From NCBI RefSeq assembly GCF_000210915.2, contig NC_016620.1, positions 2,604,001-2,668,000 on the forward strand: DNA of 64,000 nt, read 5' to 3'. The DNA is from Halobacteriovorax marinus SJ (GTDB lineage: Bacteria > Bdellovibrionota > Bacteriovoracia > Bacteriovoracales > Bacteriovoracaceae). Both the position numbers and the translations under genes were made by a program. Below, piece after piece: positions 7,320 through 39,734 of the stretch. The notes under the pieces were generated by a model, which was not told the DNA's origin, searched no databases, and saw only the letters and a program-made list of their open reading frames with translations. Within the stretch, counting starts at the first letter, position 1, and each line of letters begins with the position of its first letter.

Positions 7320-8246
7320 TTAGAGATAAGAATTCAAAAAGAAGTTAGGGTTTAGCATTAAATTGTCAAAAGACTCAAAGTCTTTCACAACTCTAACTTC
7401 TTTAATATTTTTAAATTTTGGAAACTCTAACTCACTTCCGCCACCGAGTATCACAGTTATTTTAATATCGAGATACTTATCTAACTCTTTTAGATATGAA
7501 ATCATACTCTTTCCATAATCCCACTTATCAGATGAGACAACTCCCATAACTATCGTCTCAATCTTTAGGGCATTCGTGGCCTCGCCTAAGCACTGAGCAG
7601 GGTGAGAAGCTCCAAGGTAGCTAGTTGAAACCCTATTGCTTCTACAGAGGATATCGGCAATTAGAATTGAGAGTTCATGTAAGTTACCATCAGGTGTCGC
7701 CAAAATGACCTTACTATCAGAGTCCGTAAAATTAGGAAGATTGATTTGTGCAATCTGATCTCTAATAAGAGTTGAGATGATATGCTCCTGTGTAACTGAG
7801 AAATCATCTCTGGCAACTTTCATTCCTATCTCTTGCATAACAGGTAAGACTACTTTAAAGATGAAATCCTTTGAGCTTGTGTTCAATCGCAAGTGTTGTA
7901 ATTCGGCCAATACTCCATCGATTTTATAATCCTGTAAGTTTGCAAAGAGATTCTTTACGGAGGCACTCACAAAGTCCTCACACTCTACCACTATCTCCTT
8001 AGTGGACTGAACCATCTCTTTAAGCTCATCTAGCGTAAGCGGAGATAGCTTTGAAATAGACACACCTTTGGACAAGAGAGAGCCTATGAGTTTGGCCCTT
8101 TCCAAATCCAAGCGAGAGTAAACCCTTTGACCATTAGAGGCGCGGTCAGGGCTAAACACCTGATATCTTGTTTCCCAAGTCCTTATTGAGTGAACTTTTA
8201 CACCACAGGCCTTTGATATTACTGATATTCCGATATTTTCTTTCAT
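7320..8246 (-). CDS. MerR-family regulator with B12-binding-type domain (LitR/CarH-like)
   Basis: The protein has an N-terminal MerR helix-turn-helix (SVISKACGVKVHSIRTWETRY) and a C-terminal region aligning with the cobalamin-binding light sensor CarH/LitR. From the CarH signature the EH pair is present (VTQEH), and the lower-ligand histidine is present in TPDGNLHELS, followed by YLGASHP. The tryptophan of the W-x9-EH motif is valine here. I prefer the ATG at 8246 over a GTG at 8264, because an AAGAAAG stretch precedes it and nothing resembling a ribosome site precedes the GTG. It diverges from a photolyase operon, its probable target. In the known family the apoprotein or dark form represses and light relieves repression. 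Confidence 0.85.
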   Translation of the reverse strand: MKENIGISVISKACGVKVHSIRTWETRYQVFSPDRASNGQRVYSRLDLERAKLIGSLLSKGVSISKLSPLTLDELKEMVQSTKEIVVECEDFVSASVKNLFANLQDYKIDGVLAELQHLRLNTSSKDFIFKVVLPVMQEIGMKVARDDFSVTQEHIISTLIRDQIAQINLPNFTDSDSKVILATPDGNLHELSILIADILCRSNRVSTSYLGASHPAQCLGEATNALKIETIVMGVVSSDKWDYGKSMISYLKELDKYLDIKITVILGGGSELEFPKFKNIKEVRVVKDFESFDNLMLNPNFFLNSYL

Positions 8247-8265
8247 AATTACAACTTTCTTCACA

Positions 8266-8326
8266 TTTTGGTTGATTATTTATTGTATAGTATAATACAT
8301 AAACAAAAGCTAATCAACCAAGGAGA
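8266..8326. promoter_or_regulatory. Divergent promoter with perfect 11-bp inverted repeat
   Basis: Bases 8268-8278 (TTGGTTGATTA) are repeated exactly inverted at 8311-8321. On the plus strand TTGGTT (8268-8273) is 17 bases from TATAAT (8291-8296), a good sigma-70 promoter for the photolyase operon. On the minus strand the mirror TTGGTT (8321-8316) lies 18 bases from TATTAT (8297-8292), a promoter for the regulator. So each arm contains one -35 element, and an inner TGTAT/ATACA pair sits at 8284-8299. The right arm abuts the AAGGAGA ribosome-binding site. Inference: the LitR-like protein binds the arms and shuts both promoters. Confidence 0.7.
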
Positions 8327-8332
8327 TATATC

Positions 8333-9706
8333 TTGAAAATTCTTATTACTGGAGCCACAGGGCTTGTCGGAAAGAGATTACTTGAGAAGTTATTTTTAAG
8401 TGGGTTTGATGACGTTAGAATTTTAAGCACTAATAAGAATAGGGCCCAGAACTCTATCCCCTTTCCGGTTGAAGTCTTTGAGTGGTCACCGCTAGAAAAT
8501 AAAATTTCAGATGCTGCTCTTGAAAATATAGATATCGTCTTTCACCTCGCAGGCGAAAGTGTTGCTGATGGAAGATGGAGTAAGCAAAGAAAAGAGAGAA
8601 TTCTAAACTCAAGAGTTAATGGAACAAGACTCTTATTAGATAGTATCCAAAAATCAAATAGCACTCCACAAAAGTTCATCACTGCCTCGGCAGTAGGAAT
8701 CTATGGACAAGATTTGAGTGATAAAGTTATCACTGAAGAGTCTCCACTAGATGATGATTTCTTAGCCGACGTGTGTAGAAGGTGGGAAAGCACTTTATTT
8801 GAACGAGATATTGAAGGTATGAAGGTTCACTCTCTAAGAACAGGTATCGTTCTTAGTAATCAAGGAGGAGCTCTACAAAAAATGCTCCCTCCCTTTAAAA
8901 TGGGTGCAGGTGGAATACTTGGAAGTGGAAAGCAATACATGAGCTGGATACATATTGATGACCTCGTTGATGCATATATATTTCTAATGAAGAATGACTG
9001 CAAAGAGAAGGCCTATAATGGCGTCTCACCTACACCTCTAACAAATTATAATTTTACTAAAGTACTTGGTGCGGCCCTAAAGAGACCAACTATTTTTCCA
9101 GTGCCTGCCTTTGTATTAAAAAGTATTTTTGGTGAAATGTCAGATATTCTTCTGAAAGGACAAAGAGTTATACCAAAAGCATTAGAGGCAGAGGGCTTTG
9201 AGTTTAAATATGAGAAACTAGGTGACGCCCTAGATGACATACTCAAATATGAAGTGAGCGGAGAAGTTCTCTTTAAAAGATACCAGTGGGTCGAATCATC
9301 AAAAGATAAAGTTTTTGATTTCTTTAAAGAGGCCAAGAATCTAGAAAAAATAACTCCAGAATACCTAAACTTCAAAATACTTCATATGAATACAGATAAT
9401 ATTCAAGCAGGCTCACTAATTGATTACAAGTTACAAGTTCACGGCATCCCAATGAAGTGGAAGACTAAAATAAGTGAATATGAAGAAGGTAAATACTTTA
9501 TAGATGAGCAGCTTAAGGGGCCATACTCAAAATGGGTACATAGACATGAGTTTATTCCTCACAAAAATGGAACGCTTATTTCAGACAAGGTAGTTTACAA
9601 GATCCCACTAGGAATACTTGGTAAATTAGCTGCAGGATGGTTCGTTAAAAAAGATGTAAACAATATTTTCAACTATCGAAATAAAGCAATTAATAATTTT
9701 ATTTAA
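8333..9706 (+). CDS. TIGR01777-type SDR epimerase fused to SRPBCC domain
   Basis: Residues 1-300 form an extended short-chain dehydrogenase: the NAD(P) motif GATGLVGKRL at 7-16, VFHLAGESV, and RTGIVLSNQGG, typical of the YfcH/TIGR01777 group. Residues from about 305 form an SRPBCC/START-like lipid-binding domain (VFDFFKEAKNLEKITP, then GPYSKWVHRHEF). This two-domain form occurs in light- and singlet-oxygen-responsive clusters. The TTG start is fixed by AAGGAGA seven bases upstream. It is the first gene of the five-gene operon. Substrate is unknown; a lipid or isoprenoid derivative is inference from the fused domain. Confidence 0.82.
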   Translation: MKILITGATGLVGKRLLEKLFLSGFDDVRILSTNKNRAQNSIPFPVEVFEWSPLENKISDAALENIDIVFHLAGESVADGRWSKQRKERILNSRVNGTRLLLDSIQKSNSTPQKFITASAVGIYGQDLSDKVITEESPLDDDFLADVCRRWESTLFERDIEGMKVHSLRTGIVLSNQGGALQKMLPPFKMGAGGILGSGKQYMSWIHIDDLVDAYIFLMKNDCKEKAYNGVSPTPLTNYNFTKVLGAALKRPTIFPVPAFVLKSIFGEMSDILLKGQRVIPKALEAEGFEFKYEKLGDALDDILKYEVSGEVLFKRYQWVESSKDKVFDFFKEAKNLEKITPEYLNFKILHMNTDNIQAGSLIDYKLQVHGIPMKWKTKISEYEEGKYFIDEQLKGPYSKWVHRHEFIPHKNGTLISDKVVYKIPLGILGKLAAGWFVKKDVNNIFNYRNKAINNFI

Positions 9707-9723: not shown

Positions 9724-10254
9724 ATGAAGACACTTCTTATCACGCTACTGTTAGTTTCATGTTCTACCTCAAGCGCAAGACACCTCCCACTAGATACAGT
9801 GAATTATGTGGATTTAAGCAAGTACCTTGGAAAATGGTATGAAATTGCAAGGTATGAACAGAAATTCCAAAAAGATTGTACAGCCGTTACGGCAAATTAT
9901 AGCCTAAAAGAGAATGGAGAAATTGAAGTTATCAACTCATGTCGAAAGTTCACTCCAACAGGAGAACTTAAAACAGCGAAGGCTCGAGCATGGATCACAG
10001 ACGATGAAACAAATGCAAAACTGAAAGTTCAGTTCTTTTTAAGAAGTATTCGTATACCTTTATTTGCAGGTGATTACTGGATACTAGAGTTAGATGATGA
10101 TTATCAATATGCAATTATAGGAGACCCTTCAAGGAAATATCTTTGGTTTTTAAGTAGAACCGAGAAAATAGATAGTGATCTTTATGAATATCTAATCAAG
10201 CGAGCTGAAGAAATGAGCTTTGATACGAGTAAGCTCATAAAGACAATACACTAA
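9724..10254 (+). CDS. blc: Outer-membrane lipocalin (Blc-like lipoprotein)
   Basis: The 176-residue protein starts with a lipoprotein signal ending LLVSC (Cys13). The lipocalin signature G-x-W-Y is present as YLGKWYEIARYEQKFQ, and the family's conserved closing segments are seen in DDDYQYAIIGDPSRKYLWFLSR. Bacterial Blc binds lysophospholipids and fatty acids in the outer membrane under envelope stress. It lies 17 bases after the SDR gene with a GGAGAATGA site, in the same light-type operon, which suggests a role in handling oxidised lipid. Confidence 0.9.
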   Translation: MKTLLITLLLVSCSTSSARHLPLDTVNYVDLSKYLGKWYEIARYEQKFQKDCTAVTANYSLKENGEIEVINSCRKFTPTGELKTAKARAWITDDETNAKLKVQFFLRSIRIPLFAGDYWILELDDDYQYAIIGDPSRKYLWFLSRTEKIDSDLYEYLIKRAEEMSFDTSKLIKTIH

Positions 10255-10272: not shown

Positions 10273-11232
10273 ATGGAAGCGAACCAAAAGCCTAAAATTG
10301 CAATTAGCTCATGTCTACTTGGCAACTTGGTACGATATGATAAGAACCATTGCAAGGATAATTGGATTGTAAACGAACTCTCAAAATACGTTGAACTAGT
10401 CCCTATTTGTCCAGAAATGAGAATGGGACTAGGTGTCCCAAGAGAGGAAATACATCTCTATCATAGACCTGGAGAAAAAGATAAGGTTAGACTAAAAAAG
10501 AAATTTGATGGACAAGACCTAACAAGGTTGGCTGAAGAAACCTACGCAATGATGAACGAAGATATTCGAGAAGTTGAATATGATGGAATGATACTTACTA
10601 AGAAGTCACCATCCTGTGGAATTGATAGAGTTAAAACGATTGAAGAAGGTAGGCCTGATAAAGTTACTTGGTCAACAGGTCTATTCGCTAAAAATATTTT
10701 AGAAAATTTTCCAAGCCTTCCTATTATTGATAGCGGCAGACTTTTAAATAAAGATTTAAGAGAAAACTTTCTAAAGTCAGTCTTCGCTCATTTTAGATTT
10801 AAACAAGTTGAAAAAAATCTTTCAAGCTTCCAAGACTTTCATAAAAGATATAAGTATATTCTAATGGATCATTCTCCTAGTTCTTTAAAATCACTTGGGC
10901 AGATTGTTGCAAATGCATCCCTAGAAACAATTGATAGAGACTTCAATAAGTACTACAAGTTATTTTTTAAAACAATGAGTACGCCTTCGACTTCTCAAAA
11001 GAGATGCAACACTCTTCAACACTTCATGGGTTATTTCAAAAAGCATATTGATACAGATGAGAAAAGAGAAATACTTATACTTTTAGAAGATCTTAGAAAG
11101 GATATTATTAAATACTCCGTAATCTTAAAGTACTTTGATCTACTTACTAAGAAGTATAAAGTTAACTACTTAGATATTCAGTACTACTTCTCCCCCTACC
11201 CTAAGGAATTAAAACTTTTAAAGGATATATGA
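10273..11232 (+). CDS. DUF523-DUF1722 two-domain protein (YbgA-like)
   Basis: Residues 8-150 match DUF523: ISSCLLGNLVRYD near the start, CPEMRMGLGVPRE, and KKSPSCGID, with three conserved cysteines that could hold a metal or cluster. Residues about 190-310 match DUF1722 (YbgA), including SPSSLKSLGQIVAN and a QKRCNTLQHFMGYFKK segment. In many proteobacteria YbgA-type genes sit directly next to DNA photolyase, as here; the biochemical function is unknown. Its stop overlaps the photolyase start by four bases (ATGA). Confidence 0.85.
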   Translation: MEANQKPKIAISSCLLGNLVRYDKNHCKDNWIVNELSKYVELVPICPEMRMGLGVPREEIHLYHRPGEKDKVRLKKKFDGQDLTRLAEETYAMMNEDIREVEYDGMILTKKSPSCGIDRVKTIEEGRPDKVTWSTGLFAKNILENFPSLPIIDSGRLLNKDLRENFLKSVFAHFRFKQVEKNLSSFQDFHKRYKYILMDHSPSSLKSLGQIVANASLETIDRDFNKYYKLFFKTMSTPSTSQKRCNTLQHFMGYFKKHIDTDEKREILILLEDLRKDIIKYSVILKYFDLLTKKYKVNYLDIQYYFSPYPKELKLLKDI

Positions 11233-12533
11233 AAAAGAATAAAGATAAAGTTAGTATTTTTTGGTTTAGAAGAGATCTGAGAGTTGAGGACAATATAGGC
11301 TTATATCATGCCCTGAATAGTTCTTTTCCAGTACTTCCAATATTTATATTCGATAAGAATATTTTAAATAAGCTAGAAAGAGATGATTCGAGAGTAAGCT
11401 TTATTCACGAATGCCTTCAAAACCTTAGCGAAAAGTTTAGAAAATATGATGGAGACCTACTCACTTTCTACAATTCCCCCAAAAATGCTTGGAAAGAAAT
11501 TTTTGAATCCTTTGATGTTCAAGAAGTCTATACAAATGAAGACTATGAACCCTACGCTCTAAGTAGAGATAAGTCCATTGAAGACTATTTAACAAGGAAA
11601 GGTATAAAGTTTCAATCCTACAAGGATCAGTGTATTTTTTCAAAATTTGATATTCTAAAAAAAGATGGAACTCCCTATACGGTATATACACCCTATAAGA
11701 ATAAGTGGCTTGAAACCTTGCAGCCAAGTGATCTAGCAAGTATCAAATCAGAAAAGAACCTAAGTAAAATATATAAATTTAAATCAGAAATTCATTCTCT
11801 AATGAGTCTTGGTTTTACAAAGAGTCATATCTCTTTTCCTAAAAGAATTATTAAAAAGAAAATAATAACGAATTATCACGAAACCAGAGATCTTCCATCT
11901 ATAAACGGAACATCTTTACTAGGCGTACACTTGAGATTTGGGACTATTGGTCCAAGAAAGCTTGCTTCAATTGCCTATCATACAAATAAAACGTGGTTAA
12001 ATGAACTAATCTGGAGAGAATTCTTTTCTCAAATACTCTTTCACTTCCCACATGTAGTGAACGCTCCTTTTAGAGAGAAGTATGAATCTATAGAGTGGAG
12101 AAATAACAAGGAAGAATTCAAACTATGGTGTGAAGGCAGAACAGGATTTCCCTTAGTAGATGCTGGAATGAGAGAGCTTAATCAAACGGGTCATATGCAC
12201 AATCGAGTAAGAATGTTAGTGGCAAGTTTTCTAGTTAAAGACTTGCTCATTGACTGGAGATGGGGAGAGAAGTACTTTGCAAAAAAACTTCTCGATTTCG
12301 ATTTGGCCTCAAATAATGGTAATTGGCAATGGGCTGCTGGAACGGGATGTGATGCTGCCCCCTACTTTAGAATTTTTAATCCAACAACTCAGATAAAGAA
12401 ATTTGACCCTGACTTAATATACGTAAAAAAGTGGGTACCTGAATATGGAAGCGATAATTACACTGAAGAGATAGTTGACCATAAAGAAGCTTACCATAGA
12501 GCAATATTCACATATAACAAGGCCCTTAAATAA
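11229..12533 (+). CDS. phrB: Deoxyribodipyrimidine photolyase
   Basis: The enzyme uses blue light to split cyclobutane pyrimidine dimers. The N-terminal antenna domain opens with IFWFRRDLRVEDN. The FAD-binding half is highly conserved: GFPLVDAGMREL, MHNRVRMLVASFLVKDLLIDWR, NNGNWQWAAGTG and DAAPYFRIFNP. At 434 residues it is slightly shorter than E. coli PhrB (472). One position usually aromatic in this class (TGWMHNR) is histidine here. Coupled by ATGA to the DUF523-DUF1722 gene. Confidence 0.95.
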   Translation: MKKNKDKVSIFWFRRDLRVEDNIGLYHALNSSFPVLPIFIFDKNILNKLERDDSRVSFIHECLQNLSEKFRKYDGDLLTFYNSPKNAWKEIFESFDVQEVYTNEDYEPYALSRDKSIEDYLTRKGIKFQSYKDQCIFSKFDILKKDGTPYTVYTPYKNKWLETLQPSDLASIKSEKNLSKIYKFKSEIHSLMSLGFTKSHISFPKRIIKKKIITNYHETRDLPSINGTSLLGVHLRFGTIGPRKLASIAYHTNKTWLNELIWREFFSQILFHFPHVVNAPFREKYESIEWRNNKEEFKLWCEGRTGFPLVDAGMRELNQTGHMHNRVRMLVASFLVKDLLIDWRWGEKYFAKKLLDFDLASNNGNWQWAAGTGCDAAPYFRIFNPTTQIKKFDPDLIYVKKWVPEYGSDNYTEEIVDHKEAYHRAIFTYNKALK

Positions 12534-13160
12534 ATGAAAGATACTGGACTAATAAATATAACTGAAGAGGATTTTATAAATTATGAAGAGAGAAAAAGAG
12601 CGCGCCTTATAAATTCATTGTCAGGATTTAAATCTGCAAACCTCTTGGGCACTATCTCTTCAGATAAGAAAACAAATCTAAGTATTGTCAGCTCTACTTT
12701 TCACCTAGGTGCTTCCCCTGCTTTAATGGGGATAATAATTAGACCCGATATTTCCCCGAGACATACACTAGAAAATATTAGATCAGAGAAATTCTTTACT
12801 TTAAATCATGTTAATGAACATATCTATAAGAAGGCCCATCAAACAAGCGCTAGATATCCTAGAGAAACGTCAGAGTTTGATTCATGTAACTTAACAGAAG
12901 AATATCTAGAAGAATTCCACGCCCCTTTTGTTAAGGAATCAAATATAAAAGTGGCCTTAAAGCTCATCAGAGAAATTAAAATTGAAGAAAATGGGACACA
13001 CTTTTTGATTTCAAGCGTGAAAAGTATTTGGGCACCAAAGTCAGCTCTTAGTGAGGATGGTCATATCAATATTGAAAATGCCGGGAGTATTTGTGTAAGT
13101 GGCCTAGATAGCTACCACTCAACATCTATCATTGAAAGACTCCCCTATGCCAAACCCTAG
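12534..13160 (+). CDS. Flavin reductase-like FMN-binding protein
   Basis: The 208-residue protein fits the flavin-reductase-like split-barrel family: SLSGFKSANLLGTIS and SIVSSTFHLGASPALMGIIIRP correspond to the FMN-binding strands, followed by HTLENIRSEKFFTLNHV. The ATG follows the photolyase stop directly. In light-responsive clusters of other proteobacteria a flavin reductase commonly accompanies the photolyase, so it may supply reduced flavin or act on another oxidised substrate; this is inference. It is the last gene of the operon; no strong terminator follows. Confidence 0.8.
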   Translation: MKDTGLINITEEDFINYEERKRARLINSLSGFKSANLLGTISSDKKTNLSIVSSTFHLGASPALMGIIIRPDISPRHTLENIRSEKFFTLNHVNEHIYKKAHQTSARYPRETSEFDSCNLTEEYLEEFHAPFVKESNIKVALKLIREIKIEENGTHFLISSVKSIWAPKSALSEDGHINIENAGSICVSGLDSYHSTSIIERLPYAKP

Positions 13161-33208: not shown

Positions 33209-33320
33209 AATGAAATTCGAGCATTAAGAATAAATTAAGGTCTATGTACTTTCAGTAAGTTGGATAAGGAAAAGAGGGTAAAAGTGAGTTATTTAGAGGA
33301 ATTTTATTGGTCTATAAACA

Positions 33321-33350
33321 AAAAAACCCTTCACTAGGAAGGGTTTTTTT
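33321..33350 (-). terminator. Terminator downstream of tRNA-Val
   Basis: AAAAAACCCTTC and GAAGGGTTTTTT (33321-33350) form a 12-bp stem with a short loop. It works in either direction by sequence, and is placed 13 bases after the tRNA 3' end on the minus strand. Confidence 0.88.
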
Positions 33351-33363
33351 ATATTTAAAAATC

Positions 33364-39131: not shown

Positions 39132-39734
39132 ATGACTACAGAAACTGTTTATCCAACTTCACTTGTTGGTAAAGAAGCACCAGAATTCAAAGGTCAAGCT
39201 GTTGTAAACGGTGAGATCAAAGAAATCGCACTTTCAGACTTCAAAGGTAAGTGGAAAGTTCTTTTCTTCTACCCACTAGATTTCACATTTGTTTGTCCTA
39301 CAGAAATCACTGCATTCTCTGACAAGATTCAAATGTTCAAAGACCTTAACTGTGAAGTTATTGGTTGTTCAGTTGATTCTGAATTCTCTCACCTTGCTTG
39401 GACTCAACAACCAAGAAACAAGGGTGGACTTGGAGAAATTGCTTACCCACTTCTTTCTGACTTAACTAAAGAAGTAGCTAGAAGCTACGGTGTATTAATG
39501 GATGACGCTGTTGCATTCCGTGGAACATTCGTTATTGATGATAACAATGTTGTACAACACTGTTCAATCAACAACCTATCTGTTGGTAGAAACGTTGAAG
39601 AAATCGCTCGTCTAGTAGACGGTTACCAATATACAGCTAAGCACGGAGAAGTTTGTCCAGCTGGTTGGAATAACGGTGCAGATACTATGAAGCCAGATCC
39701 AACAGGATCTCAAGAGTACTTCAACAAGTTATAA
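39132..39734 (+). CDS. ahpC: 2-Cys peroxiredoxin (AhpC/Prx1 type)
   Basis: The enzyme reduces hydrogen peroxide and organic peroxides. The peroxidatic cysteine lies in FTFVCPTEI and the resolving cysteine in HGEVCPAGW. The 200-residue length is usual. No ahpF is nearby, so thioredoxin is the likely reductant. Codon choice is more uniform than in neighbours (many GGT, AAC, CCA), and AAGGAG precedes the ATG, suggesting high expression. Confidence 0.95.
   Translation: MTTETVYPTSLVGKEAPEFKGQAVVNGEIKEIALSDFKGKWKVLFFYPLDFTFVCPTEITAFSDKIQMFKDLNCEVIGCSVDSEFSHLAWTQQPRNKGGLGEIAYPLLSDLTKEVARSYGVLMDDAVAFRGTFVIDDNNVVQHCSINNLSVGRNVEEIARLVDGYQYTAKHGEVCPAGWNNGADTMKPDPTGSQEYFNKL

Follow-up and report, generated by a model that had tools for sequence, protein, structure and literature searches.

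A 46-bp palindromic element of four boxes (positions 8272 to 8317, unstranded, centred on 8294.5) lies between a regulator gene and a divergent photolyase operon of Halobacteriovorax marinus SJ and quite probably serves the neighboring CarH/CarA-like regulator as its operator, with mirrored arms that overlap two predicted divergent promoters and would allow both joint repression and autoregulation. All positions are those of the window, the whole stretch of 64,000 nucleotides that was analysed. The element has the same geometry at orthologous promoters, and its boxes co-vary with a residue of the regulator's recognition helix.

Gene context of the element

The regulator, a CarH/CarA-like MerR-family protein of 308 aa, is encoded on the minus strand (7320 to 8246, with its ATG at 8246 and an alternative GTG start at 8264). 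The operon on the plus strand begins with a TIGR01777/ThyD-like SDR oxidoreductase that carries a DUF1731 domain (8333 to 9706, TTG start) and continues with a lipocalin (9724 to 10254), a RudS-type TudS-DUF1722 protein of the tRNA 4-thiouridine desulfidase family (10273 to 11232; for the RudS family, see PMC11417400), a DNA photolyase/cryptochrome family protein (11229 to 12533) and a flavin-reductase-like protein (12534 to 13160). This neighborhood of photolyase, RudS, SDR, lipocalin and flavin reductase genes is syntenic across the family. The content of the operon is of a light-response type (PMC11417400), and from its photolyase and RudS genes we infer a light input.

Four boxes in two mirrored arms

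A preliminary description of this DNA had pointed to a perfect 11-bp inverted repeat, which the sequence bears out: TTGGTTGATTA at 8268 to 8278 has its exact reverse complement at 8311 to 8321, 32 bases away. Extended to 22 nt, the arms pair at 18 of 22 positions. By itself, a perfect inverted repeat of 11 bp is weak evidence; the window contains 8 perfect inverted repeats of at least 11 bp with a gap of at most 60, against 1.7 expected from Markov sequences, while inverted repeats with 22-nt arms and 18 of 22 positions paired are expected 0.13 times per window. This abundance of perfect repeats is what favors reading the element as an RNA structure, a recombination site or a chance repeat, a view we consider extremely improbable in light of the conservation, co-variation and genome-wide specificity described below. 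In addition, both transcripts are predicted to start between the arms and would each contain at most one of them, which argues against an RNA structure.

The element gains its definition from four 7-bp boxes, two in tandem per arm with the arms facing opposite ways, all concentric on 8294.5. In the left arm, read on the minus strand, the outer box is TTGATTA (8272 to 8278; reverse complement TAATCAA, hence TnnTCA), recognized from sequence and conservation, and the inner box, 11 bp from it, is TTGTATA (8283 to 8289; reverse complement TATACAA, hence TnnACA). In the right arm, on the plus strand, the inner box TAAACAA (8300 to 8306; TnnACA) is followed at the same 11-bp spacing by the outer box TAATCAA (8311 to 8317; TnnTCA), which holds the conserved -35 of the regulator. 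The box pitch is thus 11 within arms, and the inner pair is 10 apart. Read outward, the inner boxes give TATACA and TAAACA, the TnnACA core of the published CarH repeat, and the outer boxes are TnnTCA and not strict TnnACA. Because the inner boxes carry this core and each lies 11 bp from its outer box, the spacing of the published repeat, the element can be described as a back-to-back arrangement of two CarH-type tandem pairs: the tandem 11-bp repeats overlapping a promoter that mark CarH operators are present, two per arm, but the arms are inverted and the outer boxes are TnnTCA.

The stretch from 8272 to 8317 is an exact match to TTGNTTAN4TTGNWTAN10TAWNCAAN4TAANCAA and the sole exact match in its own genome; the four-box form had 0 matches in 100 shuffled windows. 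We regard the element as above chance because it recurs at orthologous promoters and is absent from the shuffled windows. The 11-bp pair of the preliminary description is real and correctly placed, but the conserved boundaries are 8272 and 8317, the boxes number four, and the inner ones had been missed. The outer extensions, TTGG at 8268 to 8271 and CCAA at 8318 to 8321 (both plus strand), are not conserved; TTGG formed part of the operon -35 proposed earlier, and the last two bases of CCAA fall within AAGGAG (8320 to 8325), the site where ribosomes would bind for the SDR gene. Across 12 aligned orthologous operators, the boxes hold 0.97 to 1.34 bits per column, compared with 0.37 on the TTGG side and 0.18 on the CCAA side, such that conservation of the arms among related species, on which the earlier reading had been staked, holds for the core and fails for the outer TTGG/CCAA.

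Other repeats and matches were also seen. A long imperfect inverted repeat at 33311 to 33359 of the window, with 22-nt arms paired at 18 of 22 positions and a perfect 13-bp core spanning 33320 to 33350, is unrelated. At 39361 to 39414, an inverted repeat as long as the one at 8268 to 8321 (54 bp) falls in the coding sequence of a peroxiredoxin; it has no inner boxes and was set aside as a coincidence. A genome match at 118665 (3 mismatches) has weak boxes and was treated as chance.

Predicted divergent promoters overlapping the boxes

The predicted promoter of the regulator is TTGATT-17-TATACT on the minus strand (8289 to 8317, with the -35 at 8317-8312 and the -10 at 8294-8289), which fits best on that strand. 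Its TTG...-17-TA...T skeleton is aligned in 12 of 12 orthologous operators, with TTGWTT in 9 of the 12, and the same promoter was picked by an unaided consensus scan. For the operon we predict TTGGTT-17-TATAAT on the plus strand (8268 to 8296, with the -35 at 8268-8273 and the -10 at 8291-8296), a good fit in this genome, of which the -10 is often kept in relatives and the -35 is not. TTGGTT-18-TATTAT (8321-8292, minus strand) is also present and matches poorly in relatives. Both TTGGTT hexamers and both -10 elements, at 17 and 18 bases, thus exist as first described; the hexamers, however, are specific to this genome, their outer TTGG being unconserved, and of the two -10 assignments that of the operon stands in part, whereas the conserved promoter of the regulator is TTGATT-17-TATACT. 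Because the two -10 elements overlap, the predicted start sites would be about 18 to 22 bp apart. It is around this -10 region, common to both promoters, that the arms are inverted.

This geometry bears on whether the regulator could be a classic MerR-type activator that distorts the spacer of a promoter from a single palindrome. The protein does have a MerR helix-turn-helix and adjoins its own promoter, but the spacer is 17 bp and not the 19 to 20 bp of such promoters, no palindrome sits in an overlong spacer, and the four boxes at 11-bp spacing straddle the -35 and -10 where a MerR operator would lie between them. The departure from classic MerR geometry had been recognized from the outset and is upheld by the 17-bp spacer and by boxes over both -35 and -10, and we consider spacer distortion very unlikely here.

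Conservation among orthologous regulators

For each of 15 orthologous regulators, we counted box pairs at spacings of 5 to 30 within 160 bp of upstream sequence. With the motif as published, TnnACA, 14 pairs fell at 11 bp and 0 to 2 at each other spacing; shuffles averaged 0.3 pairs and never exceeded 4. TnnWCA, a motif widened after the outer boxes had been seen, gave 25 pairs at 11 bp and at most 4 at other spacings (shuffle maximum of 6). The four-box palindrome is found upstream of 12 of the 15 orthologous regulators in the family. In each of 11 loci (L055 to L062, L064, L065 and the window) it scores at least 22 of 28 a single time, at the promoter of the regulator; L037, which scores 19 (p about 0.02), is counted among the 12, and the layout is incomplete in three of the more divergent orthologues (L037, L038 and L039). 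At a 13th orthologue, L063 of genome G111, a site again scoring at least 22 of 28 heads an operon in which the regulator gene comes last.

A scan of 129 whole genomes of the class, allowing at most 3 mismatches, returned sites in 10 genomes; of the 12 sites, 11 lie at regulator promoters. A reversed control pattern returned zero sites in the same scan. All 10 genomes with a four-box site encode an orthologue of the regulator. The scan of genome contigs led to a single locus, L052, from the same genome as G095. Upstream of 35 more distant homologues, 11 of the 12 pairs found at 11 bp have the one-way CarH orientation, which makes the mirrored layout a feature of this clade. A search of the window's own genome with a single arm (two boxes, 1 mismatch) gave 36 matches, against 36 for the reversed control, so that further targets cannot be named there.

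The 12th site (L116:1501-1546, corresponding to G004:C9:149830-149875) lies about 70 bp upstream of a FAD amine-oxidase-like gene. The regulator probably has a second target in this gene, because relatives of the gene stand beside the regulator in G002 and within the regulator operon of G111; the window's own genome contains no relative of the G004 gene at E 1e-20. The regulator-linked cluster at L063:586-7380 encodes a fatty acid desaturase, a DUF1295 protein, two cyclopropane-synthase-type methyltransferases, an amine oxidase and a DUF1365 protein, and we take this L063/G111 cluster to resemble a furan-fatty-acid cluster. In P. putida, the furan fatty acid gene ufaM is under LitR control (PMC9758184). 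The four-box motif could provide a precise means of finding the regulon.

Co-variation of residue 23 with the boxes

The regulator varies together with its putative boxes. Thr23, in the RTWE stretch of the recognition helix, is accompanied by TnnTCA boxes at 6 of 6 loci, and where residue 23 is Val, Ala or Met, all clear boxes are TnnACA only (8 of 8 loci). No other column of the DNA-binding domain splits with box type, and the one further column that does, 237 in alignment numbering, is outside the domain. The Thr23 protein of L035 falls outside the main Thr clade and groups with the Val protein of L008 (support 90/88), and the pairing of Thr23 with its box has for this reason probably evolved on at least two occasions. 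For residue 23 against box type the Fisher value is 0.0003, a figure that ignores shared descent. This co-variation links the regulator to the boxes and is the strongest sequence evidence that the neighboring regulator binds them. One residue set against one base also makes for a testable protein-DNA specificity switch.

A predicted CarH-like fold with an altered sensory motif

The N-terminal signature is that of a MerR-type helix-turn-helix protein (Pfam MerR_1, E 8e-13), with a recognition helix, RTWETRY, that fits RxWExRY, and the B12-binding_2 domain scores 22.8 bits, just under the Pfam cut-off of 23.0. The best PDB matches by both sequence and fold are Thermus CarH/LitR; the model of the regulator has a pLDDT of 86 and aligns to the cobalamin-binding domain of CarH, a four-helix bundle plus Rossmann fold, with a TM of about 0.75 by target length. 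The Rossmann-like half is thus predicted in this protein and aligned to CarH, and the class II LitR form, with the four-helix half only, does not describe it. Upstream of the start of a distant paralogue of the regulator in the same genome (L002:1400-1500, C1 near 1292500), TnnACA repeats follow one another in a single direction at 11-bp spacing (TAGACAACTCTTATACA), the canonical CarH-type layout, as is also seen in related genomes at loci L031 and L032.

Several elements of the cobalamin signature are kept, namely EH, the lower axial His, GxxH and GxxxP. The Trp of the CarH motif Wx9EH (GxxW) is replaced by Val and is absent at that position from every full-length homologue aligned, and in the lower axial motif D/ExHx2G/P the His is retained with Asn in place of D/E and Ser in place of G (GNLHELS). 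The PDB sequence alignment has the same motif stretch as the Thermus reference row in the motif alignment. Against the NCBIfam CarH equivalog the regulator scores 76.4 bits, with a cut-off of 400. In CarH, the Trp of Wx9EH stacks on the adenosyl group (PMC10442372). With that Trp replaced by Val, photosensing through AdoCbl cannot be assumed, and because the defining motif was checked and found altered we do not file this as a CarH photoreceptor system; the "light-type" promoter of the preliminary description is accordingly a putative one.

The retained signature elements, the CarH-like fold of the model, the photolyase in the operon and a PduO-type cobalamin adenosyltransferase encoded in the genome, with which cofactor supply should be no obstacle, all speak for a bona fide class I LitR/CarH, in which an AdoCbl-dependent tetramer would occupy the four boxes in the dark and be released in light. 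The Val for Trp, the Asn for D/E and a score so far below the CarH cut-off count against it, and we consider this reading rather unlikely; the operator would be unchanged and the input would differ. Loss of the Trp with retention of EH is a hallmark of B12-independent CarA (PMC9304148), and the regulator follows this pattern, with the B12-binding motif and EH kept and the Trp lost, except for its Asn in place of D/E. A CarA-like repressor that is B12-independent, and from which a protein antirepressor or a redox/singlet-oxygen signal, in place of direct photolysis, would relieve the promoters, is accordingly a credible possibility that we hold tentatively, again with the operator unchanged. 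It has the parallel of M. xanthus CarA, with B12-binding His and EH kept and the Trp lost, and a precedent for protein-mediated relief in class II LitR, but the genome has no canonical LOV motif GRNCRFLQ within 2 mismatches, and the strongly conserved residues of the cobalamin pocket suggest a ligand. The large group of homologues that keep this pocket and have lost the Trp linked to photosensing bears on how CarH-like proteins may sense light or stress without it.

Proposed mode of repression

At the DNA level, the regulator probably works like the CarH system. We hypothesize that each arm would be bound by one head-to-tail dimer, by analogy with Cystobacter CarH and M. xanthus CarA on paired direct repeats, and that two dimers would jointly cover the -35 and -10 of both promoters, blocking RNA polymerase by occlusion and not by the spacer distortion of classic MerR proteins. 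Occlusion would be the natural mode, as in CarH, because a regulator bound to all four boxes would overlie the -35 and -10 regions of both promoters. The SDR-lipocalin-RudS-photolyase-flavin reductase operon would thereby be silenced together with the regulator gene; this co-repression and autoregulation, already proposed in the preliminary description, is supported as a reading by a predicted operator that overlaps both divergent promoters. Repression may be lifted by light or by photooxidative stress arising from light. A fuller version, which we put forward as conjecture more than as expectation, is that a B12-independent or non-photolytic CarA-like regulator of this largely predatory family would lock a bidirectional promoter on both flanks with two head-to-tail dimers on inverted pairs of 11-bp repeats, with residue 23 setting the choice between TnnACA and TnnTCA.

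Comparison with known systems

Bidirectional sigma-70 promoters of E. coli have a preferred start distance of 18 bp, and also of 10 and 23 bp (PMC12825309), and the arrangement here resembles them in its facing promoters, overlapping -10 elements and close predicted start distances. It differs in that both -35 regions lie in or at boxes of one putative repressor, and its start sites are predicted only.

Class II LitR proteins of Pseudomonas (PplR1/PmlR2) recognize T(G/A)TACA-N12-TGTA(C/T)A (PMC9758184). The likeness is that of a LitR/CarH-family repressor of photolyase/RudS-type light genes acting through inverted half-sites; however, the class II operator is one inverted pair with an 18-bp pitch and without tandem 11-bp repeats, its N12 half-site pair is not present in the element, and its regulator lacks the Rossmann half and acts with a LOV partner.

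CarH/CarA operators are known from Myxococcales, Thermus and Bacillus megaterium as 11-bp direct repeats of the form nnnnTnnACAn (PMC9304148), and the element shares with them the sequence class of its boxes, the 11-bp spacing within each arm, the overlap with -35 and -10 and, as at Sorangium crtI-carH, the use of one operator for divergent promoters. Whereas the known operators are one-way tandem runs, the two tandem pairs of this element are mirror images on either side of the promoter center, and the outer boxes are TnnTCA in the clade studied here. We thus read the element as a CarH-type operator with mirrored arms, set on divergent promoters that overlap, and as a variant layout of a known kind of operator. 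Beyond one-way tandem repeats, the CarH/LitR operator code would then include a mirrored form suited to a divergent promoter region that two genes share.
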